DNA from: Desulfobulbaceae bacterium
GTDB lineage: Bacteria; Desulfobacterota; Desulfobulbia; Desulfobulbales; BM004
Direction: 5' to 3'
NCBI GenBank assembly: GCA_002868955.1
Contig: PKTW01000164.1
Coordinates: 1-43,133, forward strand
DNA: 43,133 nucleotides
Both the position numbers and the translations under genes were made by a program. The number at the start of each line of letters is the position of its first letter. Within the stretch, counting starts at the first letter, position 1. The notes beneath the pieces were generated by a model. That model was not told the origin of the DNA. It made no database searches and saw only the letters and a list, made by a program, of their open reading frames with translations. Below are positions 1,982 to 41,370 of the stretch, piece by piece.

Positions 1982-2027
1982 TGTGCTTCCTCCTCGAAAA
2001 TTTTGTGTCAGCTCAATGAAAGCTTTT

Positions 2028-3314
2028 CTATTTTTTTACTGGTTGCACGACTGCGCCAGCCGGTAGAGTTTGCTTAACTTCATCATCCAGAGTTTTCACC
2101 CACCGGGGTGATTCGGAGAACACAGGCATCCTGTTGGCTACCCAGCGGAAAGCCCAGATTTCACCAAAGACAACAGCCAGGGTGATGACAATTTCAATCC
2201 ATGAAGGCACGTAATGCCCGGGTGCGTACCATTTAAATGCTATAACAGAGACATTGAGACGGTTCAAAATTATACCCACAGCACTGATGATAGCCCCGCT
2301 CAGCAATAGTTTCCGGTTGCGGTTTTTTGCGCCTGTTACAAAGATCAGAAACGGCAGAACCACAAACCCTATGACCTCAACCAGGTAAAGGTACCCCATG
2401 GGCGTCATCAGTAAATGAAATTGCATGGAGTGGACCAGCACCAGGATTTTCATGAAGAAATAGACAAAGAGGGCAGCTGCTGCCAGCCGGCTGAGTCCCA
2501 CCATGATATCCATGTGTTCGGCATGGTTTTTAGTACTTATCAGATGACTGAAAGCACGATGGCTGATGGTGCCTTCAATGATGACAATCGACATCCCGGC
2601 GAAGACGCTGGAAACAATGAAAAGAACCGGGATGTACTCCGTGTACCAAAGAGGATGGATTTTTGCCGGAGCCAGCAGGAACAGTGCCCCCAGACCTGAC
2701 TGATGCAGCATGGAAAGGCATATTCCGAAGATCACTGCACCTACAGTAAGAGAGCCCAGTATTTTTCTCAACTTTTTGAGCCCGAGCCATTCCGCGACAG
2801 CAGGGGAAAATTCAATAAACTGGGCCATCATGTAAAGCAGGAAATGCCAGGCCACAAGGAAAAGAACAGAACTCACGCCAAAGCTGTTGCCGATAATTGG
2901 GTTGATTATCTTCCACGGCCGCCCGAGGTCGAGGGTGAGGGCCCCGGCATAAAAGACATATGCAAGAAATCCGTTTAAGACAGTGGCCCGGACAATGGAG
3001 TGGTATTTGTCCATGCGCAGGACATAAACCATAAAGGTCACGATATAAGCACCGGCAGCAAAGGCGACGCCGGTGACAACATCGAAGCCGATCCAGATTC
3101 CCCAGGGAAATTCCTGGCTGAGATTGGTTGTTGCGCCCAGCCCTTTAGTAAAGCGCAGGATAATAAGAACCAGACCAAGAAGAATAATCGGTCCTGAAAT
3201 GAGATTAAATGGCGTGAGCAGCTTGCCCTTGGGCTTGAGTTCTTCCCGGAGAAATTCCCACAGGTCTTGCCCAACCCTTCTGTATGCTGGTGTTGAAGTG
3301 TCTGTAGTGTTCAC
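2028..3314 (-). CDS. NrfD/HybB-type integral membrane quinone-interacting subunit
   Basis: Polytopic protein with EFPWGIWIGFDVVTGVAFAAGAY and LDLGRPWKIINP typical of NrfD/PsrC/HybB family. Confidence 0.88.
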   Translation of the reverse strand: MNTTDTSTPAYRRVGQDLWEFLREELKPKGKLLTPFNLISGPIILLGLVLIILRFTKGLGATTNLSQEFPWGIWIGFDVVTGVAFAAGAYIVTFMVYVLRMDKYHSIVRATVLNGFLAYVFYAGALTLDLGRPWKIINPIIGNSFGVSSVLFLVAWHFLLYMMAQFIEFSPAVAEWLGLKKLRKILGSLTVGAVIFGICLSMLHQSGLGALFLLAPAKIHPLWYTEYIPVLFIVSSVFAGMSIVIIEGTISHRAFSHLISTKNHAEHMDIMVGLSRLAAAALFVYFFMKILVLVHSMQFHLLMTPMGYLYLVEVIGFVVLPFLIFVTGAKNRNRKLLLSGAIISAVGIILNRLNVSVIAFKWYAPGHYVPSWIEIVITLAVVFGEIWAFRWVANRMPVFSESPRWVKTLDDEVKQTLPAGAVVQPVKK

Positions 3315-3363
3315 TTTTATTCTCCTTTATTGTTTAACAGCCGCCATAAAGAATTGTTTTAAC

Positions 3364-4224
3364 TTAGTCCTTGTCGCCTTTTCCCTTTGTGGCATGGCGC
3401 AGTCCCAGCATGAATGCCGGTGCAAGCAACAGTGCCAGGGGAACGGAATACAGGAATGTCTTGGTATATTCCGGGTAGGGAGTGGTGCCCAGGTCGGTTC
3501 TGAACCCCAACTGCTCAAAAGGAACACCTGCCAGGTAGAGCATATTGGTGCCGCCAACCTCGTGTTCACCATAAATATGGCGGACATATTCAGTGGGACG
3601 GTCGTAGATTCGCTTTCTGGCAATATCCAGCAGTTCTCGCCTTTTACCGAACAGGATTGCTTCCTGGGGGCAGGCTTCAGCGCATGCCGGCATCTGGCCT
3701 TCGGTGAGACGGTCATAACACATTATACATTTTCTGATTTTCGGGTTCAGGCTGCCATACTCAAACTTTGGCACGTCATAGGGGCAGGCGATCATGCAGT
3801 AACGGCATCCCATGCACTTGTCTTCGCGCCAGATCACCGGGCCCTCGTCAGTTTTATACATAGCATTTACCAGGCAGGCGGAAACGCATGCGGGTTGATC
3901 GCAGTGCATACACTGAGTTTTAGCGAAAACTATCCCTTTATTTTTTGTGGAATGAGCATTAACAACCGTGAGCACTTCAGTGCCGGAGCTTCTTGGGCTC
4001 CCGATCTCGGGTTTTGCCTCAGGCAGCGGAAAACAGTTTTTATCTGCACAGGCCCGTTCACAGGCCTGGCAGCCATTGCACCTGGTGGTGTCATTCAGCA
4101 TGGCATAGTGCTGCGAATTATCCTTCTTAGCTATTGCCCCATAAGTGCTTTTCGGCCCCATAAGAAGACCAGCGCCGACTGCCACCCCGGTTAACTGCAG
4201 AAATTTTCTTCTGGTAGTTTTCAT
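3364..4224 (-). CDS. Tat-exported 4x[4Fe-4S] ferredoxin-like subunit (HybA/DsrO-like), C-terminal TM helix
   Basis: TRRKFLQLTG Tat signal; CNGCQACERAC, CMHCDQPACVSAC, CMGCRYCMIACP, CIMCYDRLTEGQMPACAEACP; hydrophobic C-terminus. Confidence 0.88.
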   Translation of the reverse strand: MKTTRRKFLQLTGVAVGAGLLMGPKSTYGAIAKKDNSQHYAMLNDTTRCNGCQACERACADKNCFPLPEAKPEIGSPRSSGTEVLTVVNAHSTKNKGIVFAKTQCMHCDQPACVSACLVNAMYKTDEGPVIWREDKCMGCRYCMIACPYDVPKFEYGSLNPKIRKCIMCYDRLTEGQMPACAEACPQEAILFGKRRELLDIARKRIYDRPTEYVRHIYGEHEVGGTNMLYLAGVPFEQLGFRTDLGTTPYPEYTKTFLYSVPLALLLAPAFMLGLRHATKGKGDKD

Positions 4225-4302
4225 GCCTCTATCCTTTATTTAGTATTATTGCAGAGCCAAGCGACCAATTTATAATCAGTCGGAAGAAACCGCTATTTCC
4301 GC

Positions 4303-4773
4303 CTAATCCTTGCATAAACTGTCTTCCTTTTTCAGGTGGCAGTCTTGGCAGCCCGTTACCGTATCCATTTTTTCGTGACATCCCACACACATCAAGTGGT
4401 AGGCCCTTGTCAAGCCGGCCGTGTCAATATGAAACAGTTGTGATTGTTGCGATTCTTTTACCTTCTCAGCACATCCGGGACAGGCTGAATGGCAGTCTAT
4501 GCATGCTACCTCGCATGATGTGCAGCTGTCCGCGTGACATTGCACACATTTTTCATCCTCTGTCGGCATGCCGGTTGTGTGATGATGGCAGGCTGCACAG
4601 GAAGCGATGTCCATATGCATAATATGATCAAAAGTTACCGGCCCGTATAAATTACCAATGCCGTCCAGCTCAATTACTCCAGGAACCTCTGAGGCGGAAG
4701 GTATATTTGAAGAGATAGCGAGCACACTGACTAAAAGAATACTGGCAAGTAAAATGCTCTTTTTAGGGCCCAT
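4303..4773 (-). CDS. Periplasmic multiheme c-type cytochrome (five CxxCH)
   Basis: Signal peptide; CAACH, CVQCH, CIDCH, CVGCH, CQDCH plus two extra CxxC not followed by His. Confidence 0.85.
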   Translation of the reverse strand: MGPKKSILLASILLVSVLAISSNIPSASEVPGVIELDGIGNLYGPVTFDHIMHMDIASCAACHHHTTGMPTEDEKCVQCHADSCTSCEVACIDCHSACPGCAEKVKESQQSQLFHIDTAGLTRAYHLMCVGCHEKMDTVTGCQDCHLKKEDSLCKD

Positions 4774-4874
4774 TTTGTTTCTCCTTTATTCTGTAGTTGT
4801 GCCAAAAAGAATGCCGAATCTACATTTTTTTTAGTTTTTACGAGACGATGGAATATTGATTCACCTCCATAAAT

Positions 4875-4890
4875 AGCAACAAGTATGCCA
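4875..4890 (-). promoter_or_regulatory. Candidate sigma54 (-24/-12) promoter of the cytochrome/FeS/NrfD/GcvH-like operon
   Basis: Minus strand TGGCATACTTGTTGCT; GG and GC at correct spacing; about 100 bp upstream of the ATG at 4773. Confidence 0.7.
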
Positions 4891-5167: not shown

Positions 5168-6529
5168 ATGACAAAAGGAAGCTCAAATGAGAATGTGCGG
5201 ATCCTCATAGTTGATGATGAATTTTCGGTGCGGCATTCTTTGACAGCCTGGTTTGAGGATGAAGGGTATACCGTTGGCGTGGCGTCCAGCGGCAAGGAAG
5301 CCCTGGCCAAACTTGCTGAAAATAAGTGGGATATATTTTTTCTCGATTTAAAAATGCCCGGCATGAGCGGCCTTGAACTGCAGAAAAAAATCAAGGAGAT
5401 TCAACCGGACGGCACGATCATAATTATTACTGCCTTCGCATCTGTTGAATCAGCGGTAGAAGCCATGCAAAGCGGCGCCTATGACTATTTATCAAAACCT
5501 TTTGATCCTGATTACCTTGCCCTCATGGTGCGGAATATCATCGAGCGCAAGAAATTAAAGGAAGAAACCGCCAGCCTCAAAAAAACCATTGACGTTGTTT
5601 ATACCTCGAAGGAAATCATCGGCGAGAGTTCGGGCATCCAGAAGATGATGGAAGATATCAGGGCTGTTGCCGATACCGGCTCGACGGTTCTTATCCGCGG
5701 TGAGAGCGGCACCGGGAAAGAGCTTGTCGCCAGGGCTATCCATGCAAACAGCAAGCGGCGTTATGCGCCGATTGTCACCATCAACTGCGGGGCGCTGCCC
5801 GAATCCATCCTTGAAAGCGAACTTTTCGGGCATGAAAAAGGGGCTTTCACCGGGGCCCAGTATGCCCGGAAAGGCAAATTCGAAATGGCGGACGGGGGTA
5901 CCATTTTTCTTGATGAGATAGGCAACATCAGCCCCAAGATACAAATGGAACTTTTGCGCGTGCTGGAGGATAAAAAGTTTTTTCGCCTTGGCGGCAGCAA
6001 GGAGCTCAAGGCGGACTTCAGAACAATCGCTGCAACCAACAAAGACCTGGAAGCAGCCATGGAAAAGGGAGAGTTCAGAAATGATCTCTTCTACAGGCTG
6101 AACGTGTTTGTCATTGAGATTCCCCCGCTTCGTGAGCGGAAGAGCGATATTGAGATTCTGGCCCAGAATTTTCTCAACGTTTTTACCTCGCAGATGAATA
6201 AGCCCATTGCCAGGATAAGCCCAGCAGCCATGAAACTTCTTGCAGACTATGACTGGCCCGGAAATGTCAGGGAACTGGAAAATGCCATTGAGCGCGCAGT
6301 GGTTGTTTGCAAAGCAAAGGAAATCAAGCCTTCTGACTTCCCCTTTTTTCATGCGCGCCCGGAAGAAGAAGCGACAACAGACGACTCGCTGGAATCCCTG
6401 CAGAGGAAACACATCAAGAAGGTACTCGAGCAGACAGGATGGAATATAAGCAAGGCAGCATCCGTTCTGCAGATAGACAGGGTGACGCTTTATAATAAAA
6501 TCAGTAAATACAATCTGAAAAAACCGTAA
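5168..6529 (+). CDS. NtrC-family sigma54-dependent response regulator (REC-AAA+-Fis HTH)
   Basis: REC domain FFLDLKMPG; GESGTGKE Walker A; canonical GAFTGA; C-terminal Fis-type HTH. Confidence 0.95.
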   Translation: MTKGSSNENVRILIVDDEFSVRHSLTAWFEDEGYTVGVASSGKEALAKLAENKWDIFFLDLKMPGMSGLELQKKIKEIQPDGTIIIITAFASVESAVEAMQSGAYDYLSKPFDPDYLALMVRNIIERKKLKEETASLKKTIDVVYTSKEIIGESSGIQKMMEDIRAVADTGSTVLIRGESGTGKELVARAIHANSKRRYAPIVTINCGALPESILESELFGHEKGAFTGAQYARKGKFEMADGGTIFLDEIGNISPKIQMELLRVLEDKKFFRLGGSKELKADFRTIAATNKDLEAAMEKGEFRNDLFYRLNVFVIEIPPLRERKSDIEILAQNFLNVFTSQMNKPIARISPAAMKLLADYDWPGNVRELENAIERAVVVCKAKEIKPSDFPFFHARPEEEATTDDSLESLQRKHIKKVLEQTGWNISKAASVLQIDRVTLYNKISKYNLKKP

Positions 6530-7103: not shown

Positions 7104-8753
7104 TTATGCCTGTTCTCTGTGTGCTGGAGGCTCCTGAGGCAGGCAAATGGTAATGGTGGTGCCTTTCCCCAGTTCGGATTCGACTTCAATGCTTCCCTGG
7201 TGGGATTTGACAATTTCATAAACAACGGAAACACCCAGGCCGCTGTTTAGGCTTGATTCCTTTTCTGGGGAAACCGTCTTTGTTGTAAAGAACGGTTCAA
7301 ACATATGGGACCTGGTCTCCTCATCCATGCCGATGCCATTGTCACTAATGGCAATTCCCACCCTTTTCTTTTCTTCCATTAAGTATGTGCTGATGTCAAT
7401 GAAGCCGGTGTCACTCTGCACCGCATCACAGGCGTTGAGCAGCAGTGCCACGAGCGCCTGCTTTATTTTCTGGTCATCGCAGCTTATTTGCGGTGATTCC
7501 GAGGCAAGCTCCAGTTTAATCTCTATATTGAGTAGATCAATTTGGTGCTGAACAAGACGCAGCGTTTCCTCCACCAGGGTGTTTATATCATGCTGGCCGA
7601 TTTTTGGCTTGGTGGGCCGGGCAAACTGCAGCAGCCCCCTGACAATCTCACCGCATCGCGCAGATTCACTCTCAATGGTTTCAATATATTGAATGTACTT
7701 TACGGCGTCACCGGGAAAAAGCTCGGCGCCCCGTTTCAGCATCAGCTTGGCATAGGTGCGGATGCCGGCAAGAGGGTTGTTGATCTCATGGGCAACAATG
7801 GCGGCTAGGCGTCCCATGGAGGCCATTTTCTCCGCCTGTATGGCATTTTCCTGTGCCCGTTTCAGCTGGGCCGTCCTTTCCTCCACAAGATCTTCCAGCG
7901 TCAGGGTCCAGTTGGTAATTTCATCCCTTGCCTCTTTTAATTCATGGGTCATGATGTTAAATGATCGGGCAAGATCACCAATTTCATCAGAAGAGCGGGC
8001 CTGAATCTCAAAGTCCAGATCGCCTGCTGCGACTTTTTTTACTCCACCTGCCAACCTTTGCACCCGGCGGCTGATAAATTTTTCAATCATGGCATAGCTT
8101 ATGACGATGATTGCAAGCAGGGCCAGGATGGTTGTTAAAATTGTCCGGTTTTTTGCTGCGGTTACCGTCCTAAGGGCTCTCTCCACATTGGTTTTTACGA
8201 TCATGCCTCCGATAATCTTTCTGGAAGAACCATGGCAGTGAAAACAGGCTTCTTCATTAAGAATCGGCTCTATGATTATGATATGTCTTTTGCCGTCGAT
8301 CTCAGCCTCAAACGATTCCTTCGGAGCCTCACCGGATTGCAGTAAAAGAGCTAAGGCCGCCATGGGCTCTGCATTATTTATCGTATTAGTAATGTTTGTG
8401 TAAATTTTATCCCTGTGCGTCGACCAGGTGATGAGCTGATTGGTATCGCAAATGAAGACCTCGATGCCCTCCATTTTTTCACGGATGTCGGTCAGTACCT
8501 GTTCCACTGCGGAACTGTCACCGACAGACATGGGATATTTAATGCCGGAATAGGTGGAAGCGGCAAGATCCAAACTGAGCGTTTCCATGAGTTTAATGGC
8601 GTCTTTTTTGCCAAAATAAAGATCCAGGATAATCTCAAAGCTCATGACCAGGGTTATGGAGACGATAATGGTCGCCATTATCCTGTGGCCCAGTTTTTTC
8701 CTAATAAAGTCGGGCAAGCGGTTCTTGATAAAGTATTTTATGCTATCAGTCAT
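7104..8753 (-). CDS. Membrane sensor histidine kinase with periplasmic heme-c motif and HAMP
   Basis: TM, periplasmic domain with EEACFHCHGSSRK (CxxCH), TM, HAMP, HAIVAHEINNPLAG H-box, HATPase. Confidence 0.9.
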   Translation of the reverse strand: MTDSIKYFIKNRLPDFIRKKLGHRIMATIIVSITLVMSFEIILDLYFGKKDAIKLMETLSLDLAASTYSGIKYPMSVGDSSAVEQVLTDIREKMEGIEVFICDTNQLITWSTHRDKIYTNITNTINNAEPMAALALLLQSGEAPKESFEAEIDGKRHIIIIEPILNEEACFHCHGSSRKIIGGMIVKTNVERALRTVTAAKNRTILTTILALLAIIVISYAMIEKFISRRVQRLAGGVKKVAAGDLDFEIQARSSDEIGDLARSFNIMTHELKEARDEITNWTLTLEDLVEERTAQLKRAQENAIQAEKMASMGRLAAIVAHEINNPLAGIRTYAKLMLKRGAELFPGDAVKYIQYIETIESESARCGEIVRGLLQFARPTKPKIGQHDINTLVEETLRLVQHQIDLLNIEIKLELASESPQISCDDQKIKQALVALLLNACDAVQSDTGFIDISTYLMEEKKRVGIAISDNGIGMDEETRSHMFEPFFTTKTVSPEKESSLNSGLGVSVVYEIVKSHQGSIEVESELGKGTTITICLPQEPPAHREQA

Positions 8754-8787
8754 CTATCTGGAGCCTGCTATCATTGATTTAAAGAGC

Positions 8788-9303
8788 CTAATGCGCTCCG
8801 CCATGGATCAAGGGTTTATACTTGAAAGCTTTGACACGTTCTGAAATGTGGCAGACCTCGCAATCTTTTTTGCTCATATTGCTGATTATTGCACCTGGTT
8901 CTGCTGTCCTGGCATGTTCTGCTCCTGGCCCATGGCAGACCTCACAGCCGGCATTCTTGAGATGCGGGGTTTCTGCGAGGCTGATAAATCCACCTGGCTG
9001 TCCATAGCCTGTGGTGTGACAGGGATAGCACTGCTTGATCTCGTCAGGAGTAAGGTGTCTCATTTGTTTCTCAATACTTTGAAATGATGTGCTTTTTTTG
9101 GCGTATGTCATGAAATTGTCGTATTCCTCAGGATGACAGTCTTTGCAAGCCAGTGAACCGACGTATATGGGCTCTTCATTATTTTCGTTTCCCTGCGATG
9201 GAGAAAAACAACCTAAAACCATAAGTATTGCTATTGCTGGCAATAGGGGCTGCTTTCTGCTTAAATTTTGGCTGGATATTTTTATTGTTTTCATATGATG
9301 CAC
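8788..9303 (-). CDS. Tetraheme c-type cytochrome (cytochrome c554-like)
   Basis: CKDCH, CYPCH, CEVCHGPGAEHA, CEVCH; N-terminal signal sequence. Confidence 0.82.
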   Translation of the reverse strand: MHHMKTIKISSQNLSRKQPLLPAIAILMVLGCFSPSQGNENNEEPIYVGSLACKDCHPEEYDNFMTYAKKSTSFQSIEKQMRHLTPDEIKQCYPCHTTGYGQPGGFISLAETPHLKNAGCEVCHGPGAEHARTAEPGAIISNMSKKDCEVCHISERVKAFKYKPLIHGGAH

Positions 9304-9320
9304 CTCCCAATATTGGGTGC

Positions 9321-10034
9321 CTAATTTGTTGGGGGAACAGAACCTTCACTGAATGCGGAGAAATAAGATGCAAACTTTTCCAGGTCATGCTTGAGCGCTG
9401 AATGAAGCGAGACTGTCAGCGTATCGAGGATGGTAATGGCATTCAGGGTGGAGTCATTTTCACAGAATGCACGCAGCCGTTTACATATCTGGGTATTGAC
9501 GATATGGACATTGCTGTAAATGCTTTCGAGCCTGCTGAAATCCGTTGGGATGCAGCCGCTTTTCTTGTGGATGAAATACTGTGCCAGGAGAAACATTGTC
9601 GTTGCCCGGTAAATTTTTTCTTCCGTGTCGGCAAAAGGCAGATGGTACCTGGACATGGGCCTGAAATATCTGGTATGAGGGCAGCCGCTGGCAGGGATGA
9701 TCAGCCCAAGCAATGAACTTAAAGCCCTCTGCAACGTCATATCTGCTGAAACTACCCTGTTGTTATATGCAACCTCGGCATGGACTTCATCATAGGACAG
9801 GAAATTATGTATTTTCGATATAACACTGTCTATGGCTCGTGCAAGTGGACAGAACGGGCACTCTTCCGAATTGAGGGGGCAATGGCTGCACTTGTGAAAA
9901 GCAAGCCGGGTCCAATCTTTTTCACCATCATTGAGATTGAGAAGAGAAAAATCCATCCTGTCAAAAACCAGGTCAATACTGAAATCTATGTCAGTGGATT
10001 CAAGGGTGTATTTTATGTTTATGGTTTCTCTCAT
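9321..10034 (-). CDS. Uncharacterised Cys-rich cytoplasmic protein (possibly DUF6901-like, from memory)
   Basis: CSHCPLNSEECPFCPLA motif; 17-bp gap to the cytochrome gene; intact ORF in operon. Confidence 0.65.
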   Translation of the reverse strand: MRETINIKYTLESTDIDFSIDLVFDRMDFSLLNLNDGEKDWTRLAFHKCSHCPLNSEECPFCPLARAIDSVISKIHNFLSYDEVHAEVAYNNRVVSADMTLQRALSSLLGLIIPASGCPHTRYFRPMSRYHLPFADTEEKIYRATTMFLLAQYFIHKKSGCIPTDFSRLESIYSNVHIVNTQICKRLRAFCENDSTLNAITILDTLTVSLHSALKHDLEKFASYFSAFSEGSVPPTN

Positions 10035-10071: not shown

Positions 10072-11145
10072 TTAAAATTCAGAAGCTCGTGCTGCTGGTC
10101 GTGTTAAAGTGAACGGCAGCTTTATTATAACAGATGTTCCTTTATTTTTTTCATTAACGATTTCTAAATCACCCCCGTGATCAAAGATTATCTGCTTGCA
10201 CAACGCGAGCCCCAGGCCCATTTTTCCTGGTCTAGTAGTCATAAAAGGATGCATAGCCTGAGATGACGACAACTCTTTGAAACCACCCCCCGAGTCAATA
10301 AATTCAATATGAAGATTATCCCAGCACAGTAAAACCTTGATAGTAATCTTGCCTCCACTATCGGCCATGGCATCGAGGCTGTTTTCAAAAATGTGCCAGA
10401 AAGCCTGGCGCATCAGTGACCAATCGATATACATTGCGGGCAGCTCATCATCTATTTCAAAATCCGCTGCCACGCCGGAAAGTCGCGTTTCAGTTTTTAG
10501 TACTTTGCACCAACTTTCAACAAAATCGTTCATATCGATTAGATTGAATTGAGGTTTCAGAGGGCGAACCACGTCGCAGATATCACTTATCAACTCCTCG
10601 ATATGCTGCACATGATGACTGATATGTTTCAGCTGTTTTCTGGAACCGTGCGGCAGGTCAATTCTTGTCATCATCCTACGTACAAGACCACCGATGATCA
10701 TGAGAGGATTGCGTAACTCATGGGTCATGCGGTAAGAAATTTCTCCAATTGCTGCCATTGTATCCAGATGGGACACTTTTTTTTCCAGGCGAAGTTTTTC
10801 ATCCTGAATAGCAATAATTTCCCAGAGGAATAAAGCCCCGACATGATCAAGGACCTTGATGCTGGCAAGCTTGTTATTATGGATATCAGCGAGCACCCTG
10901 TCGTCTCCAGTCAGCTCTATGATAAGGTCAAGCTCTTTGTTTTGCAGAAAGGGCTGGCAGTCAGAAGTGGTTGCTATGCCGAGACGCTCTGCCAGGCGTC
11001 TGCCAATTGCCTCAATATTTGGGTCTGCCACGCCAATTATTTGTGGTTTGAAATGATAGGGAGGATAGGACTTTAGATGGTGCAGGATATCATAACATCC
11101 TTTCCCGCCACCGACAAAGGCTACGGTAATGACTTGCTTGCTCAT
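10072..11145 (-). CDS. Soluble histidine kinase with N-terminal Rossmann-like domain
   Basis: N-term VITVAFVGGGKGCYDILHHL...IIGVADPN resembles NAD(P)-binding Rossmann; C-term RMTHELRNPLMIIGGL H-box and HATPase G boxes. Confidence 0.85.
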   Translation of the reverse strand: MSKQVITVAFVGGGKGCYDILHHLKSYPPYHFKPQIIGVADPNIEAIGRRLAERLGIATTSDCQPFLQNKELDLIIELTGDDRVLADIHNNKLASIKVLDHVGALFLWEIIAIQDEKLRLEKKVSHLDTMAAIGEISYRMTHELRNPLMIIGGLVRRMMTRIDLPHGSRKQLKHISHHVQHIEELISDICDVVRPLKPQFNLIDMNDFVESWCKVLKTETRLSGVAADFEIDDELPAMYIDWSLMRQAFWHIFENSLDAMADSGGKITIKVLLCWDNLHIEFIDSGGGFKELSSSQAMHPFMTTRPGKMGLGLALCKQIIFDHGGDLEIVNEKNKGTSVIIKLPFTLTRPAARASEF

Positions 11146-11390
11146 AAGGAATGACCAGAAGTGGTTAGCGCTTATGCCCTATTATCAATAATACCGAATT
11201 TTTCGGTGTATAGATAATTGAACAATCCCGAAACGCTATTCCCTGCCATACAGCCTGGTTAGGCATTCTCAAATCTAATGTATATACTGGTAAAAATACC
11301 CATGTCAAGCTTCTTTTCTAGTTGGCATTTCAAGGTAAAGCCACAATGTGGCAGGTGGGAAAGGCTGTGCGGGAGATGAAGTTGATAAAA

Positions 11391-11426
11391 AAAGAGCCAG
11401 GCGATTTTCTTCTCGCCTGGCTCTTT
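11391..11426 (-). terminator. Rho-independent terminator of the yedE...rhodanese operon
   Basis: Minus strand AAAGAGCCAGGCGA-(GAAGAAAA)-TCGCCTGGCTCTTT followed by T-rich tract. Confidence 0.88.
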
Positions 11427-11452
11427 CGGTATTGGCAAATTTTTAAAGAGAT

Positions 11453-12493
11453 CTAGTCTTTATTATCCTCTTTTTCTATGGCCTCTTCAAGTTTTTTGAT
11501 CTTTTTCTCCAGTGCTTTGAGTTTCTTGTTTACACCGTCAAAATTATACCATTGTTGACCGTTTGAAGCGACAACCGGACGGTTGGCACCCAGATCGGAT
11601 GCATAGACCCTCCAGGATTCATCCCAGTTGGCCGGGTCTTTAAAACCCATCAGTCTCAATTGCAGATAGGTGAGGGTGGAACGGGTCCCGGTCTGGCAGT
11701 ATGCGACGGTGCGTTTACTCTTATCAAGAGTGCCGAATTTTTCCTGCAATCCCTTAGAATCCATAAAACCGGTGGCTTCCATCTTTTCGGTTTTCTTGTC
11801 CATTTCCTGGAGCATGGTATCCTTGTGTGAGACATTGATTGTTGTATTGGGAACATGGCCGCCCCTTATCGCCCGGATATCACTCCCAGCATTCTCCTTT
11901 GAGCTGCGGGAATCAATGAGTTGGGCACCATTTGTTTTACCTGTTGCTATATCAGTTATCTCATCAGTAGTTGCCAAACGGTTTGCAACCACATTGGCTT
12001 TGAATGTCTTTGGTTCCTTTATAGTCGGTTCCTTTTCGAGGCGGAAGCCTGAATTACGCCAGGCTTCCAGGCCGCCGTCCATGAAGTGCACCTTGTCATG
12101 GCCCAGATATTCCATAACCCAGAAACCCACCGAAGCATCGGTCAGGGTCTTTATATCGCCGTGATAGAAAACCACATGAGTGTTATTGTCGATCCCGGCT
12201 TTGCCTAGCAGGCTTTCATATTTTGATACATCGGAAAATACCCTTGAAGTCGGGTCACGCAATGCCTTTTTAACCCGTTTGCCCAGGCTGATGGCTCCTG
12301 GTATATGGCCCTTGGCGTAATCCTTCAAATCCCTGGAATCAATAACCACCCAGTCAGGTTTATCCATGTTTTTCTCTAATGCTTCAGGGGTAATAAGCAG
12401 GTCCGGATTGGTCCACTCGGCAGCAACTGCCATACCTGTCATAAGGAGCAGAAAGACTCCCGCCATAATCAATATTCTCATTTTTTTCTGCAT
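11453..12493 (-). CDS. Exported thiosulfate sulfurtransferase, tandem rhodanese domains (SseA-like)
   Basis: Signal peptide from start at 12493 (MQKKMRILIMAGV, AGGAGG RBS); C-terminal rhodanese active site CQTGTRST; first domain lacks active Cys; C-terminal Lys/Glu-rich coiled-coil-like tail. Confidence 0.88.
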   Translation of the reverse strand: MQKKMRILIMAGVFLLLMTGMAVAAEWTNPDLLITPEALEKNMDKPDWVVIDSRDLKDYAKGHIPGAISLGKRVKKALRDPTSRVFSDVSKYESLLGKAGIDNNTHVVFYHGDIKTLTDASVGFWVMEYLGHDKVHFMDGGLEAWRNSGFRLEKEPTIKEPKTFKANVVANRLATTDEITDIATGKTNGAQLIDSRSSKENAGSDIRAIRGGHVPNTTINVSHKDTMLQEMDKKTEKMEATGFMDSKGLQEKFGTLDKSKRTVAYCQTGTRSTLTYLQLRLMGFKDPANWDESWRVYASDLGANRPVVASNGQQWYNFDGVNKKLKALEKKIKKLEEAIEKEDNKD

Positions 12494-12599
12494 AGTGTAC
12501 CTCCTAAAATTTTTTGTTATTTGCAGTGTCAATACCCGACAAATATCCTTATTGGTCAGTTCTTCACACCGCTTTTATCCCGGGTAAATTAACGGATCA

Positions 12600-13079
12600 T
12601 TACCTGGCAATTAAAACAGCCATTTTTGCATTATTGGCCACTTCCCTGCTGATGCTCCCCATCCAGAGATTCTGTAATCTTTTCCCCCGGGAACCCATTA
12701 TGATCATCTCAACTCCATTCTCCTCGGCAGCTTTCAGGATCTCTTCAGCCGGATGCCCCTGCCGCACCAGCGAATCTACTCCTGAGAATCCACGCTTTTC
12801 CAAACGGTCTTTAAAATAGTGCAGCACTTTTTCAGCATGCTGGTCCAGTTTTTCCTGGTACTCGGTGCCCTTGAGTGATTCCTTCAGGGTTTCCGTTTCG
12901 GAAGTGCTGAGCAGGAGTCCGCCCATGACCGAACGTCCCTCCAGCCTTTCGACATAGAGCAGGATAATGTTTTTGGGAACACAACCGCCGCCGACACAAT
13001 CGCCCAGAAGGCTATTGAGTATCTCAACCACGGACTCCGACCCTTTTGTGTCATCAACTGCAAGGAGTATTTTATCCAT
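12600..13079 (-). CDS. Universal stress protein (UspA family)
   Basis: MDKILLAVDDTKGSES...IIMGSRGKRLQNLWMGSISREVANNAKMAVLI. Confidence 0.9.
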   Translation of the reverse strand: MDKILLAVDDTKGSESVVEILNSLLGDCVGGGCVPKNIILLYVERLEGRSVMGGLLLSTSETETLKESLKGTEYQEKLDQHAEKVLHYFKDRLEKRGFSGVDSLVRQGHPAEEILKAAEENGVEMIIMGSRGKRLQNLWMGSISREVANNAKMAVLIAR

Positions 13080-13082
13080 TTG

Positions 13083-13286
13083 TTATTTCCCGAGTGTCTT
13101 GTAATAATCTTGTATTTCATCTGATAGGCCTTCGATCTTTTCTTCAGCGGCACCACCATAGCCGGCTGCCTCTACAGCACCGAAGTACCCGGGTTCCGTA
13201 CCGGTGTGGGCCGATACCGCATAGCCGCCGGCAAAGCCGAGGCTCAGTGTTAGAATCGTCAAAATCAGCCAATATGTATTTTTCAT
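13083..13286 (-). CDS. Small single-TM hypothetical protein
   Basis: 67 aa, N-terminal TM (YWLILTILTLSLGFAGGYAVS); 3-bp gap to uspA. Confidence 0.7.
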   Translation of the reverse strand: MKNTYWLILTILTLSLGFAGGYAVSAHTGTEPGYFGAVEAAGYGGAAEEKIEGLSDEIQDYYKTLGK

Positions 13287-13298
13287 AGCCGCACCTTC

Positions 13299-13493
13299 CT
13301 ATTCTTCCTCTTCATCTTCGTATAAATGCTCATACTGTTTCAAAATATCGTCTGGCAGCGGGGCACCCTCTTCAAGCAGATCAATATTGTCTCCAAAACC
13401 AACTTCAAGAAAAGGTGGAACACTGTACCCCATCATGAAACCGAGAAAGCCTGCAACGATAATTATTACCATCCATAGGTTTTTCTTTTCCAT
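13299..13493 (-). CDS. Small single-TM hypothetical protein with acidic C-terminus
   Basis: 64 aa, N-terminal TM (LWMVIIIVAGFLGFMMGYSVP); same architecture as neighbouring 67-aa ORF. Confidence 0.7.
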   Translation of the reverse strand: MEKKNLWMVIIIVAGFLGFMMGYSVPPFLEVGFGDNIDLLEEGAPLPDDILKQYEHLYEDEEEE

Positions 13494-13570
13494 TCTTCTG
13501 TCCTCTTTACAGTCCTTATTAAAAGGCCTCGTTTGTTTTCGAGCCTAAAAAGGTATCCAGCATAATCCTG

Positions 13571-13822
13571 TTAAGCTTTTTGAATTGTGAAGATGAATTT
13601 AGCCCCATCCCTCTTTTGATCGAGAACCGGGTTGCCCTCATTTGTGCACATGGCAGAGATGGACTCTGCTGAAGAGGGGTTGTCAAAAACCAGCTCAAGC
13701 TTGTCGCCGCTGTGCAGTTTTTCCATAACTTTCTTTGTATAGAGCTGGGGATGGGGGCAGACATAGCCGGTAACATCCAGGGTATATAATCCATGTTCTA
13801 CTTGTTTAAATTGCATTGCCAT
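13571..13822 (-). CDS. tusA: TusA-family sulfurtransferase
   Basis: LDVTGYVCPHPQLYTKKVMEKLHSGDKLELVFDNPSS; CPxP motif. Confidence 0.92.
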   Translation of the reverse strand: MAMQFKQVEHGLYTLDVTGYVCPHPQLYTKKVMEKLHSGDKLELVFDNPSSAESISAMCTNEGNPVLDQKRDGAKFIFTIQKA

Positions 13823-13846
13823 AATATGGAACCTCCCGTATTGAAT

Positions 13847-15355
13847 TTATAAGTCAAAATCGATATTGGCCATTTCTTTGGCCATTTTCCTTTCCGTATA
13901 CCAGTTGAAAAATTTCACGCCGATAAAGGCGCCGCCAATCATACCCAAACCGAAAGACCACCCGGAAACATCACCGTTGGCGGTTCTGACAAAAAAGGCC
14001 CCGACATTACAGCCAAGCGCCAGCCTGGAACCAATTCCCATCAGGGCTCCACCGATCAGGGCCCATATAGCCAGCTCCTTGGTGGGTTTTTTCCACTTAA
14101 ACTCGTTATTCATCAGGGCCATTACAGCAGCGCCGCCGATAAGAGCCACCGACATCCAGTCAGCCGGGTTAATGGCCGGACTGGGGATGCCGTTCACCCA
14201 GCCAAAGTAAATATTGTCCATGTTGTTAAAACCCAGCTTCTGGGCCACCCATCCAACCCACTGGGCCTCCTGGGTGGTGACATACCAGTAGCCCGGGTCA
14301 AAAACTGTGCCTTTGGCGGAGATGCCGTAATCAAAGCCGATGCGCTGCAGGATGGTGCCGGCATTCTTGACACCGAATTTCATGCGCAAGCCTTCGATGA
14401 CAAACATCTGCAGGCCGCAGGCAATACCGAGGAACAGGCCGGCAATTGCGGTCCGCTTGGAGGATATTATCATGGACCAGAAGCCCCGCACGTGGTCAGC
14501 TAATCCTGCACTGCGCCCCTCGTTGGTTTTCAGGTCCATGACGTACCGTTTACGCGACCAGAAAATGTAAACTATGATTAACAGGAGAACCGCCGGCAGA
14601 AAAACGCCTACGAAGGTGTTGGCATACAGGGCACCGACCAGGGAATGGTCATCCAGGCCGAGGAGTTTGGCAAAGGTAATTACCGGCTGCTCCCAGACAT
14701 AGCCGGCCAGGTACTGGTCAACCCAGCCGTCAGAAACATTGATGGAGCTTGGCAGACCCTTGGTGAGTGCGGCTTCGGCCCAGGATTTTGGTACCAGCTT
14801 ATTGGCCCAGCCGCCAACATCTACAAAGGCCGCCTGGGTGACACTGATGGACAGGATGACCAGCATTGAAACACCGTTGCCCTCACCGGCCTTGTATAGT
14901 GAACCGGAAGCACAGCCGCCGGCAAAGACCATGCCGACCCCGAAGATGATCCCGGCAATAACGGCATGGACGCTCCAGGGCGCGGCATGGAAGGTGGACC
15001 AGCCCGTTGCGGCTACCAGGGAAGAGGTGATTGAGAAGAGAACGGTGGCAATCATGATGCCGACCACCATGCGCGGCACCCCGACCGCAAACAGGTCCCG
15101 GAATGCGGAAGCAAAACAGAACCGGCCATACTGCAGGCACATACCGTAAATAAAACCGAACCAGAGATAAGCGGAAAGATAAAGGTAATACTCGTGCATG
15201 GCATAGGTGGCAATGCTTACCAGGCCAAAAAAGCCCACAATGATATAAACCCACATAATGTTTTTCCGCGGCACAGTTTGAACAATCGGTTTGCTTTCAC
15301 TACAGCAATCTGTTGACTTGGGTTCTGTTAGTGTTCCTGTGACTATGGCGTCCAC
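13847..15355 (-). CDS. yedE: YeeE/YedE-family (thio)sulfur transporter
   Basis: Polytopic; two conserved motifs AGGCASGSLYKAGEGN and LGCNVGAFFVRTANGDVSGW. Confidence 0.93.
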   Translation of the reverse strand: MDAIVTGTLTEPKSTDCCSESKPIVQTVPRKNIMWVYIIVGFFGLVSIATYAMHEYYLYLSAYLWFGFIYGMCLQYGRFCFASAFRDLFAVGVPRMVVGIMIATVLFSITSSLVAATGWSTFHAAPWSVHAVIAGIIFGVGMVFAGGCASGSLYKAGEGNGVSMLVILSISVTQAAFVDVGGWANKLVPKSWAEAALTKGLPSSINVSDGWVDQYLAGYVWEQPVITFAKLLGLDDHSLVGALYANTFVGVFLPAVLLLIIVYIFWSRKRYVMDLKTNEGRSAGLADHVRGFWSMIISSKRTAIAGLFLGIACGLQMFVIEGLRMKFGVKNAGTILQRIGFDYGISAKGTVFDPGYWYVTTQEAQWVGWVAQKLGFNNMDNIYFGWVNGIPSPAINPADWMSVALIGGAAVMALMNNEFKWKKPTKELAIWALIGGALMGIGSRLALGCNVGAFFVRTANGDVSGWSFGLGMIGGAFIGVKFFNWYTERKMAKEMANIDFDL

Positions 15356-15439
15356 CTGCCACCTCCTTTTCTGTAAACTTGTTTCTAATTTTCTATAATT
15401 ATTTGACGCTTATTGTTAATAAAATGTATAATTATACCC

Positions 15440-15455
15440 TGCAAGGCTCGTGCCA
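15440..15455 (-). promoter_or_regulatory. sigma54 promoter of the yedE-tusA operon
   Basis: Minus strand TGGCACGAGCCTTGCA, full match to TGGCACGNNNNTTGCA; about 85 bp upstream of the yedE ATG. Confidence 0.85.
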
Positions 15456-15599
15456 CATTGTGGTACATGCTCTTGAATGAGATCCCGACGGATTCTATAA
15501 AAAGCCCTGAAAACAACCCTGATAAGCCGTAAGGGTTTTTTTGAGATATTTTGTGCACAGGTTGCCGGTCAAAGGACAGCTTTGTGTTTTATCAGATAA

Positions 15600-15669: not shown

Positions 15670-17346
15670 TTAAATCGTATCAAAGATCGTAATAAAGGTC
15701 TGGTAGCGGAACACCCTGGAGCTGTTGGTAAACTTTTTGATCACCCTGCTGGATGGATATTTCTGTGCCAACTGCTCCGGCATGCTGCTGATTGGTTCGC
15801 TTGAAATGACTACAACAGGGAGTTGCAGGTCAGCATATTTTATGTCCCGGTAGTAAGCCGGTTGCTTGAGTTCCCAGGTAAAACGCAATGAAGCGTTCTG
15901 CGCTCTCCGGTATCCTTCTTCAGAGTTCCAGGTTTGGTTCTGGTAAATTTCTTTGTCTGTATAAAGATCCAAGATAGGGACCATAACAGAGGTGTTACCA
16001 AGAGAATGCACTTGGGGCAGACAATATACTTCAACGGCTTCAGTTTGAAGTGTATTCAAAAATCTGCCTCCATTTTTCAGATTCGACACACTCGTCATTG
16101 CCAGGAACGGCTTGTATACCCAAATACCGATCACCAGTGAAGACAACACGCCACAGTAAGCGATGTATCTCCTGACCTGGGCATGGGTTATCGCCTGCAG
16201 GCCGTAAGCGGCAGTCAAAGACAGAAAGGGCAGAAGAGGCAGGAGATACCGTAATCTTTTCAGTTCCAGGAAAAACACCAGGACAGCGAACCAGACAACA
16301 ATAAATATTTTTCTGTCACGATTGATTGCAGCACGGCAGCATCCGAAGAATGAAGCCAGCAATATATATGGATGGGCCTGGAAGAAAAACACTGCCACAT
16401 ATCCTTCCTGCCAATTTTTTAACCCGGATAGCTGATAGGTGCGCAGGACATTGATCTGCTCTAAGATCAAGGCACCCTTCCACATAAAAATAATCCCCAG
16501 CAGCATACCTGTCAGAGCTGCCACACCCAGTGAGCGCTTTATTACTATCCTGGGCTGTGTATCTATCCTGATCAGTGCGATGATGCCAAGTACGCCAAGC
16601 ATAGGCCAAGTTGAATACTTGCAGAATAGGGCAAGGATGATGGCTATGGCAGCACCGAGCGTTAAAACAAAGCCGCCCCGCTCAAGAGCGTACAGGAAGG
16701 TGTACACTGCCAGCAGCAGGAAGAACATGACGTGAATATCAACCAGCATGAGAGGGACCTGGGTGAGAAGATAAGGGGATGCAATGATAAATACACCGGC
16801 AAGAAAGCCTGTTGTCCGGTCCCACAGGAGCCGGCCGATTAAATAAGTGATTATTGGGATGAGACCAAAGAGCAGCACATTAAATATCGCAATGACCGGT
16901 TTGGTTTCCCCGAACAGTCTAAAGAGAATCCCATAGAACATCGGCACAAGGGGCAGGTCGGTCCATGCAGTGATCTCTCCACCCCATTCCTGGAAAAATT
17001 CACTTATGCCATACTCTTTCAGGTATTTTGCCTGCAGAAAATATCTTGCCGAGTCCAGCAGGTATTCAGGGCTGTTTATGAATGGCAGACAGCTGAGCAC
17101 TGATAGAAGAAAGAGGGAAACGGCAGGGTGTTTTTCCGGCAAGTTGGAGCTGGACAGCGGCACAGCCAGCAGGGGCGCCGGTAATAACAGCAGAAAAACG
17201 CTGCCCGGCCCCTTGTCTGCAAAAACCCAACGCCAGCTTGTCAGAGTGCTCATATCCAGTGAGCGACTGATGTACTGCAGGGGAAAAATCAGCAGCGTTA
17301 AGAATAAAACAAGCAGCAGCCATTCTGTTCTGGTAAATCGTAGCAA
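15670..17346 (-). CDS. Polytopic glycosyltransferase, GT39/ArnT-like
   Basis: Multiple TM helices; SARYFLQAKYLKEYG and WTDLPLVPMFYGILFRLFGE typical of PMT/ArnT family. Confidence 0.8.
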   Translation of the reverse strand: MLRFTRTEWLLLVLFLTLLIFPLQYISRSLDMSTLTSWRWVFADKGPGSVFLLLLPAPLLAVPLSSSNLPEKHPAVSLFLLSVLSCLPFINSPEYLLDSARYFLQAKYLKEYGISEFFQEWGGEITAWTDLPLVPMFYGILFRLFGETKPVIAIFNVLLFGLIPIITYLIGRLLWDRTTGFLAGVFIIASPYLLTQVPLMLVDIHVMFFLLLAVYTFLYALERGGFVLTLGAAIAIILALFCKYSTWPMLGVLGIIALIRIDTQPRIVIKRSLGVAALTGMLLGIIFMWKGALILEQINVLRTYQLSGLKNWQEGYVAVFFFQAHPYILLASFFGCCRAAINRDRKIFIVVWFAVLVFFLELKRLRYLLPLLPFLSLTAAYGLQAITHAQVRRYIAYCGVLSSLVIGIWVYKPFLAMTSVSNLKNGGRFLNTLQTEAVEVYCLPQVHSLGNTSVMVPILDLYTDKEIYQNQTWNSEEGYRRAQNASLRFTWELKQPAYYRDIKYADLQLPVVVISSEPISSMPEQLAQKYPSSRVIKKFTNSSRVFRYQTFITIFDTI

Positions 17347-17615: not shown

Positions 17616-19307
17616 ATGGAAGATATCTATTCTTTAACAAACGACATATTTTCAAAAGAATTCCTGCTCAAGTATCATAACGTTGAGGAAATTCTTATTG
17701 GCATAATATGTCTGTTGATCGCGATAAGGGCATTCAGAGCCAGCGGCTTTAAAATAAGCAGGAACCAGATCAAGAGCAGCAGGATCTTTCTTGTAGGTGC
17801 CAGCTTTATTATCCTCGGAAGCAGCAGCCTGATCCATGCCTTGATCCATGCCACAGATTCTGACCTGAATCTTCTCTACCATACACTATTGGGGTACAGC
17901 CTTGGACTTTTCATCCTAATCATAGCTATTTCCGTTGAAAATCCGCAGAACAAAATAGCTCTGCCCCTGCTCTACATTCCTCTGCTGGCCCTGTTGCACC
18001 CCATGGCCTATGAAAAGTTTCCTCTTTTCGGGCAATTCCGGCCTCTTGTCTGGATATTGATCGCTTACCTCTCCGGCATAGTCTGCATGCTCTATATCGG
18101 TACATTTTACCGCAGGCGAAGCAAGCAGTTCCTGTTTTCGGCAGTTGGCCATCTTATTATCTGTATCGGTGCAATTTTTCTTTTTTTCCCAGCGCCTATT
18201 GGATCCACGGTCTGGCTCCATGGGCACATAATGAGACCGCTTGGGTTTGTAATATTATTTTTTAGCATGAGCAGGACAGAATTACTCAAAATGGAGGGTT
18301 CTATCCTTTACAGGGCCCTGGCCGCCTTTTCCATTCTTACCGCGATTCCGCTCCTCTTCTTTGGGACCTTTGTCTTTTACGATAATATTTCCCCGGTAAC
18401 CATAATAGGACGCCGCTTTATTGTATTTCTCCTCCTTCTCATCACCCTTATTTCCGGTCTCCTTTTCGGCTTGGGCATGATCATCAGGTTGATTCGCCCG
18501 ATTCTGCAGCTGAAGAGCTCAGTTGACGGAATGGTGGGAGAGAGCAAGGTGCAACGCATACCTATCCAGAGTAATGATGAGATAGGTGAACTTTCGAATG
18601 CCTTTAATGAAATGTTAAACAGGCTGGATAACGCCATCGAGGAACAGGAGAGGATGTGCCGGCTGGCTGCAACCGGCGAACTTGCAGCAACCCTGGCACA
18701 CGAAATAAAGAACCCGCTCAATGCCATAGGCGGCGCCGCAAATTATATAGGCAAAAACGTAAAGGGCAGTCTGGTTAAAGAATTTGTAACAGTTATCTCC
18801 AGCGAGGTTTCCCGTATAAACAACCTGACCAGCACCTTGCTGAGCTTTTCCAAAACCGCTGAACCCGATCCCCAACCAGTAGAGATAAACAAATGCGCGA
18901 AAGAGGCGCTCTACTTGCTCAGCAAAGAATCACCAGACCTTAAGGTGGCATTAAATGAAGACCTGGCCGCAGACCTGCCCCTGGTCGACTGCGATTATAA
19001 CCAGATCAAACAGATCATTATCAACCTTTTGATCAATGCGCTCGATGCAGTTGATGAACACGGTGTAATCACGGTAAGAACCTGGCATAAGAGAGATAAA
19101 ACGTATCTGGAAGTCGAAGATAACGGCAAGGGCATTTCACCGGAAATTATCCACAATATCTTTAATCCTTTTTTCACAACCAAGACCCGTGGTACGGGTC
19201 TTGGTCTGGCCATATCGAAAAAGATCGCCCGGGAACACGGGGGCAATCTTACCGTTGAGAGCACACCGGGTAAGGGCAGCACCTTCACCCTTGTGCTAAA
19301 TGATTAG
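17616..19307 (+). CDS. Polytopic membrane sensor histidine kinase (multi-TM sensor, HAMP, HisKA, HATPase)
   Basis: Many N-terminal TM helices; HAMP; TLAHEIKNPLNAIG H-box; GTGLGLAISKKI. Confidence 0.93.
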   Translation: MEDIYSLTNDIFSKEFLLKYHNVEEILIGIICLLIAIRAFRASGFKISRNQIKSSRIFLVGASFIILGSSSLIHALIHATDSDLNLLYHTLLGYSLGLFILIIAISVENPQNKIALPLLYIPLLALLHPMAYEKFPLFGQFRPLVWILIAYLSGIVCMLYIGTFYRRRSKQFLFSAVGHLIICIGAIFLFFPAPIGSTVWLHGHIMRPLGFVILFFSMSRTELLKMEGSILYRALAAFSILTAIPLLFFGTFVFYDNISPVTIIGRRFIVFLLLLITLISGLLFGLGMIIRLIRPILQLKSSVDGMVGESKVQRIPIQSNDEIGELSNAFNEMLNRLDNAIEEQERMCRLAATGELAATLAHEIKNPLNAIGGAANYIGKNVKGSLVKEFVTVISSEVSRINNLTSTLLSFSKTAEPDPQPVEINKCAKEALYLLSKESPDLKVALNEDLAADLPLVDCDYNQIKQIIINLLINALDAVDEHGVITVRTWHKRDKTYLEVEDNGKGISPEIIHNIFNPFFTTKTRGTGLGLAISKKIAREHGGNLTVESTPGKGSTFTLVLND

Positions 19308-19318: not shown

Positions 19319-20662
19319 ATGGTGCACAATATTCTGATAGTTGACGACGAAGTAAATTCATTGAAGGTGTTGTCTGCTGCTTTGAAAAAAGGCAAGACAG
19401 AGATTGATACCGCACGGTCCGGCGAAGAGGCCCTTGATCTGATAAAAAAGAAAAAATACTCAATCGTTATTTCCGATTTCAAAATGGGGGGCATGAGTGG
19501 GGAGCAGCTGCTGGAAAAAACAAAGACTCTTTCACCGGATTTGCCTTTTGTTCTTCTCACAGCGCACGGCACTATTGAATTGGCAGTGAATGCCATGCGT
19601 AAAGGTGCTTACACCTATCTCACCAAACCCGTGGATATGAATCTGCTTGAATCAATGGTCAATGATATTCTGGTTAACGGGATGCCAAAAACAGGCAAAG
19701 CAGCCCCGGCTAAGCTTGAGTTCATGAATATTATAGGCCGCACCCCTGCAATGCAGGAGGTTTTTTCTCTGATCAGGCGGGTGAGCAAGACGGATGCCAA
19801 CATTCTTATTCTGGGAGAATCGGGGACCGGCAAGGAACTCGTTGCGAGGGCAATACATTACACTTCCCTGCGGGTTGATAAACCGTTTATCCCGATTGAT
19901 TGTACGACCATCCCTCCAGAACTCATGGAAAGTGAACTGTTCGGTTATGAAAAGGGAGCTTTCACCTGCGCAGTCGAGCGCAAACTCGGCTTAATAGAGA
20001 TGGCACAGGGCGGCACAACCTTTTTTGATGAAATAGGCGACCTTGATTTCGTCCTCCAGAAGAAACTGCTTCGTTTCCTGCAGGAAAAGGAAATACGGAG
20101 AATCTCAGGCAAAGAAAAAATTAAAGTGGATGTCAGGGTGCTTTCCGCCACAAACAGAAATATAGAAGAATCCCTGAAGAACGATGAGTTCCGCTCAGAC
20201 CTTTACTACAGGCTCAATGTTATTACTATACGTATCCCTCCCCTGCGGGAAAGAATAGACGATATCTCTATATTGGCAAATCATTATCTGCAACATTTCC
20301 GGGAAAAAAACAAGAAGGAAATCCGCGAAATAGAGCATGGGGCGCTGGCTGCCCTCAACAGCTATGACTGGCCTGGCAATGTGCGTGAACTGGAGAATGT
20401 AATGGAACGGGCGGTAATACTCTGCCCCCATGATACGATAAATGTTGAGTGCCTGCCGAAGAAAATGCAAGTGCTTGCAGGTGAAGAATATCCCGAGATT
20501 AAGGAATTTAACCTGCCTGAAATTGAAAAAAGAACCATTATCAAGGCGCTTGATAAAACATCCTGGAATCAATCCAGGGCAGCGGCTCTACTTGGCATAA
20601 GCCGCAAACAGTTACGGACCAAAATGAAAAACCTTGAATTGCTCCCTGTCTCTGAAAAATAA
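19319..20662 (+). CDS. NtrC-family response regulator with variant GAFTCA loop
   Basis: REC, GESGTGKE Walker A, GAFTCA (tgc confirmed in sequence), Fis-type HTH; 11-bp gap from HK. Confidence 0.94.
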   Translation: MVHNILIVDDEVNSLKVLSAALKKGKTEIDTARSGEEALDLIKKKKYSIVISDFKMGGMSGEQLLEKTKTLSPDLPFVLLTAHGTIELAVNAMRKGAYTYLTKPVDMNLLESMVNDILVNGMPKTGKAAPAKLEFMNIIGRTPAMQEVFSLIRRVSKTDANILILGESGTGKELVARAIHYTSLRVDKPFIPIDCTTIPPELMESELFGYEKGAFTCAVERKLGLIEMAQGGTTFFDEIGDLDFVLQKKLLRFLQEKEIRRISGKEKIKVDVRVLSATNRNIEESLKNDEFRSDLYYRLNVITIRIPPLRERIDDISILANHYLQHFREKNKKEIREIEHGALAALNSYDWPGNVRELENVMERAVILCPHDTINVECLPKKMQVLAGEEYPEIKEFNLPEIEKRTIIKALDKTSWNQSRAAALLGISRKQLRTKMKNLELLPVSEK

Positions 20663-41280: not shown

Positions 41281-41370
41281 TATCATGGTTACATTACATG
41301 GCACAACGCAATTTGGTTCTGGTCATCCATATAAAGTATTCAACAAATATATAATGAGGAGGCAATTATA

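Follow-up and report, generated by a model that had tools for sequence, protein, structure and literature searches.

How thiosulfate or elemental sulfur enters sulfate reducers and disproportionators is an open question, for which the YTD cluster is the leading candidate marker. We examined a 43,133-nt stretch of DNA (the window; contig PKTW01000164.1, assembly GCA_002868955.1) from a sulfate-reducer-like Desulfobulbaceae bacterium, in which a sequence-only reading had described a complete sigma54-driven sulfur operon resembling the YTD cluster. The locus raises the question of what kind of system this operon encodes. Its gene set is common to several phyla and probably serves the uptake of sulfur compounds: we compared it with 48 homologous loci from Desulfobulbales, Nitrospirota and MAGs labelled Proteobacteria, Acidobacteriota and Rokubacteria.

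Operon layout and predicted control

All the operon parts named in the sequence-only reading were found on the minus strand by Pfam matches and sequence inspection, in the order sigma54 element, yedE, tusA, smA, smB, uspA, exported tandem rhodanese and terminator. The features of the operon and its surroundings are the following:

10072..11145, minus strand: second histidine kinase, downstream of the operon (Pfam HisKA/HATPase_c)
11339..11353, no strand: second palindrome copy, AGCCACAATGTGGCA, downstream of the terminator
11383..11427, minus strand: strong predicted intrinsic terminator with a U tract (the hairpin at 11390-11427 folds at -27.9 kcal/mol, z -7.1)
11453..12493, minus strand: exported tandem rhodanese, 346 aa (Pfam Rhodanese, two stretches, 2e-28; signal peptide ending AVAA)
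12600..13079, minus strand: uspA, universal stress protein, 159 aa (Pfam Usp 1e-19)
13083..13286, minus strand: smB, paralogue of smA, small single-TM protein of 67 aa with the motif TGTEPGYFxAVEAAGYGG
13299..13493, minus strand: smA, small single-TM protein, 64 aa, GYSVPPFLEVGFG motif, conserved in related loci
13571..13822, minus strand: tusA, 83 aa, CPHPQ motif (Pfam TusA 2e-20)
13847..15355, minus strand: yedE, TsuA-like importer, 502 aa (Pfam Sulf_transp 3e-39; GTG start; AAGGAGG ribosome site)
15440..15455, minus strand: predicted sigma54 -24/-12 element, TGGCACGAGCCTTGCA (TGGCACG-N4-TTGCA, perfect match), upstream of yedE
15451..15465, no strand: palindrome TGCCACATTGTGGTA, candidate operator, overlapping the -24 box
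15670..17346, minus strand: GT39/PMT-like glycosyltransferase, upstream neighbour (Pfam PMT_2 5e-8)
17616..19307, plus strand: divergent histidine kinase, candidate regulator (Pfam HAMP/HisKA/HATPase)
19319..20662, plus strand: sigma54-activating response regulator (EBP), candidate activator (Pfam Sigma54_activat 2e-66, Response_reg, HTH_8)

The gap between uspA and the rhodanese gene is 107 bp, which makes a single transcript through the rhodanese plausible. The sigma54 element lies about 85 bp ahead of the yedE GTG start (15355), and the strict pattern occurs four times in the 43 kb window. Among related loci, it was found upstream of yedE in 29 out of 42, compared with 5 out of 2564 control 400-bp pieces (0.2%). 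This recurrence of a -24/-12 element with exact spacing supports sigma54 control of the operon from a predicted promoter, as had been proposed. The palindrome over the -24 box is present at the same place in three related loci (L011, L012 and L013), and L012 and L013 also have its second copy after the rhodanese gene; a sigma54 site at this second copy (11339) was rejected, as the spacing is one base short. The overlap with the -24 box suggests that regulation is more than a simple EBP switch.

The divergent kinase/EBP pair, which was found upstream of yedE in many relatives, would switch the operon on, while the second histidine kinase is kept in near relatives (after the rhodanese in L012, L013 and L056). 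These genes could also belong to a sensing or stress module for sulfane sulfur, in which YedE would import a signal and the small proteins and Usp would report to the adjacent kinases, as has been proposed for the signalling SoxT of Hyphomicrobium, a YeeE-like protein whose signalling role has been described (PMC11582611). The adjoining kinase/EBP pair, the second kinase downstream, the UspA inside the operon and the sigma54 promoter are in line with such a module. However, kinases do not adjoin every locus, uspA occupies the same place in 35 out of 48 loci and is missing from several, and TusA together with DsrE/F/H suggests flux; we thus consider sensing quite improbable. In Desulfolithobacter, GF1_10730, GF1_10760 and GF1_10800 (Usp, response regulator) were found only under thiosulfate disproportionation (PMC9751629); these proteins resembled those of the present gene set at first sight and were left out of the comparison.

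The YedE-TusA pair and the small membrane proteins

The yedE product matched Spirochaeta YeeE (PDB 6leo/8j4c), and its C80, C148 and C449 aligned with C22, C91 and C293 of StYeeE, i.e. the cysteine ladder of TsuA-TsuB. These three cysteines, together with R86, K155, E158 and E418, were present in essentially all of the 46 YedE homologues, and the CPHPQ motif in 48 out of 49 TusA homologues. Judged by sequence, the operon YedE has the half order and transport cysteines of YeeE/TsuA, a thiosulfate importer of solved structure, and the acceptor cysteine in the CPxP motif of YeeD/TsuB is present in TusA; the conservation of all three transport cysteines speaks for the path of import by YedE and relay by TusA put forward earlier. 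The mechanism of StYeeE and StYeeE-YeeD has been reported (PMC11073785). TsuA-TsuB (YeeE-YeeD) of Spirochaeta thermophila and E. coli shares the half order and the three transport cysteines, and likewise pairs its importer with a CPxP TusA-like acceptor, but its importer is shorter (339 aa versus about 500 aa) and carries R98 where the operon YedE has K155. The operon type also adds the small-protein pair, Usp, and rhodanese or DsrEFH, and its YedE is far below the cut-offs of the NCBIfam TsuA models (106 bits versus 400, and 65 versus 645), as is its TusA for TsuB (39 of 147.5 bits). The SoxT1 importers of sulfur oxidizers, likened here from the literature, are YeeE-family proteins whose import is proposed to feed a cytoplasmic sulfur relay, with a paralogue reported to have a signalling role; their Sox or sHdr context was not seen at the operon.

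The best NCBIfam models were selenium-related: selen_YedE_FdhT for YedE (142 bits) and YedF for TusA (53 bits). The rhodanese, in addition, weakly matched ExtH. An importer and relay for selenite or a related compound, similar to YedE/YedF of the same superfamily, would account for those matches, yet all of them fall below their cut-offs (350, 79 and 200 bits, respectively), a separate host YedE on contig C25 passes its selenium cut-off (382 bits versus 200), and the genomic linkage of the operon type is with DsrE/F/H. A selenium function is therefore highly improbable.

We then examined smA and smB, which are paralogues (hhalign E=2e-18), contain no cysteine and matched no family in Pfam or NCBIfam. 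AlphaFold2 predicted helices at residues 2-30 and 48-59 in smA (pLDDT 74) and at 2-28, 37-45 and 56-66 in smB (pLDDT 75); both begin with a TM helix, end with a C-terminal helix and have a conserved segment rich in Gly and Tyr. The differences between close relatives fall mostly at third codon positions (134/74/418 per codon position for smB and 42/16/126 for smA), so the small ORFs are coding. Their conservation beside yedE-tusA, on which the sequence-only reading had staked its interpretation, was confirmed: in 46 out of 48 loci one or more small proteins come after yedE-tusA, and 43 loci have two copies or more. When smB was used as the only query against 243 genomes of the order, strong matches appeared only at loci of the same yedE-tusA kind; these matches (L085-L098) lie on contigs of the same lengths as loci already counted, and thus represent an independent query that adds no loci. 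Among 345 genomes of the phylum, smB matched only the window. At the sequence level, smA and smB are tied to the same YedE-TusA pair across phyla. We found no paper describing them in the openly accessible literature.

DsrE/F/H, exported rhodanese and the YTD cluster

The gene order in relatives was TusA2-DsrF-DsrH-DsrE-GT39-YedE-TusA-smA-smB-Usp, with the DsrE/F/H-like triple just upstream in most related loci. The operon of the window has no dsrE, as noted before, though dsrE is present elsewhere in the genome: contig C172 carries tusA-dsrE-dsrF-dsrH adjoining a yedE-tusA-small-usp paralogue. Because most relatives carry the triple and the host keeps these genes on C172, the missing DsrE is a trait of the rhodanese variant. 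The placement of the rhodanese after uspA recurs in relatives, and rhodanese loci are without the triple (21:7, zero overlap); this swap suggests that DsrE/F/H and the exported rhodanese do equivalent jobs. The rhodanese has two domains and a signal peptide, in line with the exported tandem protein described before, but its catalytic cysteine, in the active loop CQTGTR, is kept only in the second domain, according to the homologue alignment.

The published YTD cluster (yedE-tusA-dsrE-chp1-chp2, now yeeE-tusA-dsrEFH type II) has the same component types, and its Chp1 and Chp2 are DsrF/DsrH-like proteins (2026 papers PMC13047784, PMC13293266). The DsrE/F/H-like genes that occupy the same neighbourhood in most operon relatives are homologous to the canonical ones (hhalign 8e-18, 2e-12). 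The proposed YTD resemblance is half right; the identification of smA/smB with the YTD hypotheticals was not supported, as smA/smB are single-TM paralogues and the DsrF/H-like genes stand apart from them in the same clusters. The YTD cluster is without small TM proteins, Usp and GT39 as parts, while the rhodanese variant is without DsrEFH, and dsrE with two Chp genes does not accompany yedE-tusA in the window operon. In 12 out of 12 cases, the halves of canonical YTD YedE (410-450 aa) are swapped relative to those of the operon YedE, and the main half matches show 22-36% identity. The two form separate clans in the tree, whose depth is inflated by the half swap; an apparent gap of canonical YedE at C293 was an artefact of the same swap. 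The operon could still be a true YTD member that lost dsrE in the host lineage, as relatives hold every YTD component type in one cluster, but the reversed halves, the intact tusA-dsrEFH core on C172 and the presence of both clusters in some genomes (e.g. G409, with smB on C120 and canonical YTD on C69) make this very unlikely. The operon gene set overlaps with the YTD cluster and is not identical to it.

In 30 out of 37 loci GT39 lies upstream of yedE at a distance of no more than 3 kb, and an FAD oxidoreductase (amine-oxidase-like) and/or an HpnJ/BchE-like B12-radical-SAM gene is found downstream in nearly all DsrEFH-type loci. These neighbours do not fit a simple sulfur relay.

The imported sulfur could alternatively serve biosynthesis and not energy, building or modifying a membrane lipid or glycan with the products of these three genes. 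Besides their linkage, the B12-radical-SAM gene adjoins some canonical YTD loci too, and MAGs labelled Proteobacteria and Acidobacteriota are among those that carry the loci. Against such a supply, the FAD and radical-SAM genes are absent from the operon in the window clade, DsrE/F/H and rhodanese are sulfur-trafficking proteins, and the host carries dsrA, dsrD and aprA; we regard it as unlikely.

Proposed function and meaning

With moderate confidence, and on sequence grounds, we favour a sigma54-controlled importer and relay of the TsuA/TsuB type for thiosulfate or other sulfane sulfur, with an undescribed membrane subunit pair and two alternative back-ends for sulfur handling; its substrate and its role in physiology are inferred. 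YedE would hand sulfur along its cysteine ladder to TusA, and smA/smB may assist or regulate YedE as a membrane subunit without carrying sulfur themselves. At the outer face, the exported rhodanese would work on sulfane sulfur, replacing the DsrE/F/H-like acceptors of other loci, UspA may tune the importer system, and the imported sulfur would most likely enter the host Dsr/Apr system.

It is an even call whether these loci represent a second, widespread YTD-like kind of sulfur trafficking, with a TsuA-order YedE-TusA pair, a near-constant, undescribed paired small membrane subunit, sigma54 control and two back-ends that exclude each other, one made up of DsrE/F/H with FAD oxidoreductase/B12-radical-SAM and the other an exported rhodanese, which would have arisen at least twice. 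A parallel cluster that shares YTD parts means that gene-based YTD calls may confuse two systems, and smA and smB are two small conserved membrane proteins that are directly testable as importer subunits.

Operon and sigma54 promoter

The operon proposed in the sequence-only reading, a sigma54-driven sulfur unit resembling the published YTD cluster (yedE-tusA-dsrE-chp1-chp2), was found as described on the minus strand of the window.

Sigma54-related features of the window
15455-15440, minus strand: perfect -24/-12 element, 5' of yedE
15355, minus strand: GTG start of yedE, the first gene after this element
4890, minus strand: second sigma54-like element, 5' of a gene group within 373-4890
5168-6529: sigma54 activator, divergent from the 4890 element

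After yedE follow tusA, two small ORFs (smA and smB), uspA, the gene for a rhodanese that bears a signal peptide, and finally a terminator of -27.9 kcal/mol (z -7.1), with ORF starts assigned mechanically. The strict sigma54 pattern was present in 29 out of 42 yedE upstream regions versus 5 out of 2564 control pieces. A palindrome kept in the nearest relatives overlaps the -24 box and has a second copy 3' of the rhodanese gene, and a divergent kinase/sigma54-activating response regulator pair lies upstream of the operon in the window and many relatives. A near-perfect sigma70-like promoter (TTGACG-18-TATAAT, 11/12) occupies the opposite, plus strand within the yedE leader (15403-15432).

The group after the 4890 element looks like another redox operon: a 156-aa ORF and the genes for a 4Fe-4S protein, for an NrfD-like membrane protein and for two proteins with a GcvH domain. 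The sigma54-like element 5' of an ammonium transporter, with a second transporter nearby (41265-42585 and 39115-40440), probably reflects ordinary nitrogen control. Finally, a DUF6901 protein, a multihaem cytochrome c554-like protein and a histidine kinase lie 3' of the operon (7104-10034), also in near relatives.

Conservation and relation to YTD

Scanning 84,980 species genomes, all those behind the loci being drafts or MAGs, with the window YedE sequence gave 49 loci, whose neighbourhoods were annotated with iterated profiles; the set comprises matches to this query, and the outer edge of the family lies outside it. The loci came from Desulfobulbales, Nitrospirota and MAGs labelled Alpha-, Beta- and Gammaproteobacteria, Acidobacteria and Rokubacteria, of which single MAGs may be mis-binned. 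Among the 48 sets with YedE (window included), TusA followed it in 45 and Usp in 35. The expected conservation of small ORFs beside yedE-tusA was borne out: 46 sets had one or more small TM proteins, and 43 had two or more. GT39 was found upstream of yedE in 30 of the 37 loci with enough flank. A serious rival reading of the operon is a biosynthetic function connected with GT39 and the radical-SAM enzyme.

The small TM proteins had been likened to the two YTD hypotheticals, but those are DsrF/DsrH-like (PMC13047784, PMC13293266, both 2026); therefore, the small TM proteins are not those of YTD. Most relatives carry a DsrF-, DsrH-, DsrE-like triple immediately 5' of GT39-yedE, homologous to the canonical YTD one (hhalign 8e-18 for DsrE, 2e-12 for DsrF), and 11 of 13 matched Pfam DsrE. 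The host has tusA-dsrE-dsrF-dsrH on another contig (C172), where a second yedE-tusA-small-usp cluster lies approximately 6 kb away, an arrangement common to close relatives (L142-L146). The YedE of this second cluster is 52% identical to that of the window. Another host contig (L010, C144) groups a MarR-like regulator and a YedE split across two ORFs of 175 aa each with TusA and a DsrE2-like protein.

Canonical YTD YedE (12 loci, among L133-L152) differs from window YedE and TsuA/StYeeE in having its halves in reverse order: the window N half aligns with the canonical C half, and vice versa. Because of this swap, the order in which TsuA profiles match also differs between the two. The tree separates both types at 100/100, with branch lengths inflated by the swap.

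Alternative back-ends and small membrane proteins

Rhodanese followed Usp in none of the 21 loci with DsrE/F/H-like genes, and these genes were found in none of the 7 rhodanese loci, both counts being drawn from loci whose flanks were long enough on either side (Fisher 8e-7, ignoring kinship among loci). The rhodanese label requires at least two changes on the tree. The second domains of the rhodaneses have the loop CQTG(T/S)R in common; in the window protein, no catalytic cysteine is present in the first domain. In some loci (L041:6279-8416, L039), the rhodanese is followed by a YeiH/PF03601 membrane protein and by another rhodanese-like protein that is also exported.

The small ORFs are real genes, since differences between close relatives fall mostly at third codon positions. 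smA (motif GYSVPPFLEVGFG) and smB (motif TGTEPGYFxAVEAAGYGG) are paralogous to each other (hhalign E=2e-18), matched no Pfam or NCBIfam family, and lack cysteine in the window copies. AlphaFold2 predicted one N-terminal and one C-terminal helix for each (pLDDT ~75). A search with smB alone matched 16 of 243 genomes of the order; strong matches occurred only at yedE-tusA loci of the window kind, with one further weak match, which ties smB to yedE-tusA within the order. In some loci (L008:4471-4890, in the second yedE-tusA-usp cluster on host C172; L046; L051), the pair is replaced by a single relative, a small TM protein lengthened by many GGYGA(P)-type repeats.

Proposed sulfur path

YedE keeps C80, C148 and C449 (C22, C91 and C293 of StYeeE), and TusA keeps CPHPQ. 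A selenium role for the operon is unlikely, since the host has a separate selenium YedE scoring over its cut-off. Judging from the analogous YeeE-YeeD structure (PMC11073785), thiosulfate or sulfane sulfur would likely pass through YedE and then to TusA; we infer the roles proposed for the smA-smB pair, Usp and rhodanese. As the host has dsrA, dsrD and aprA, the cytoplasmic sink for this sulfur is probably the Dsr/Apr system.
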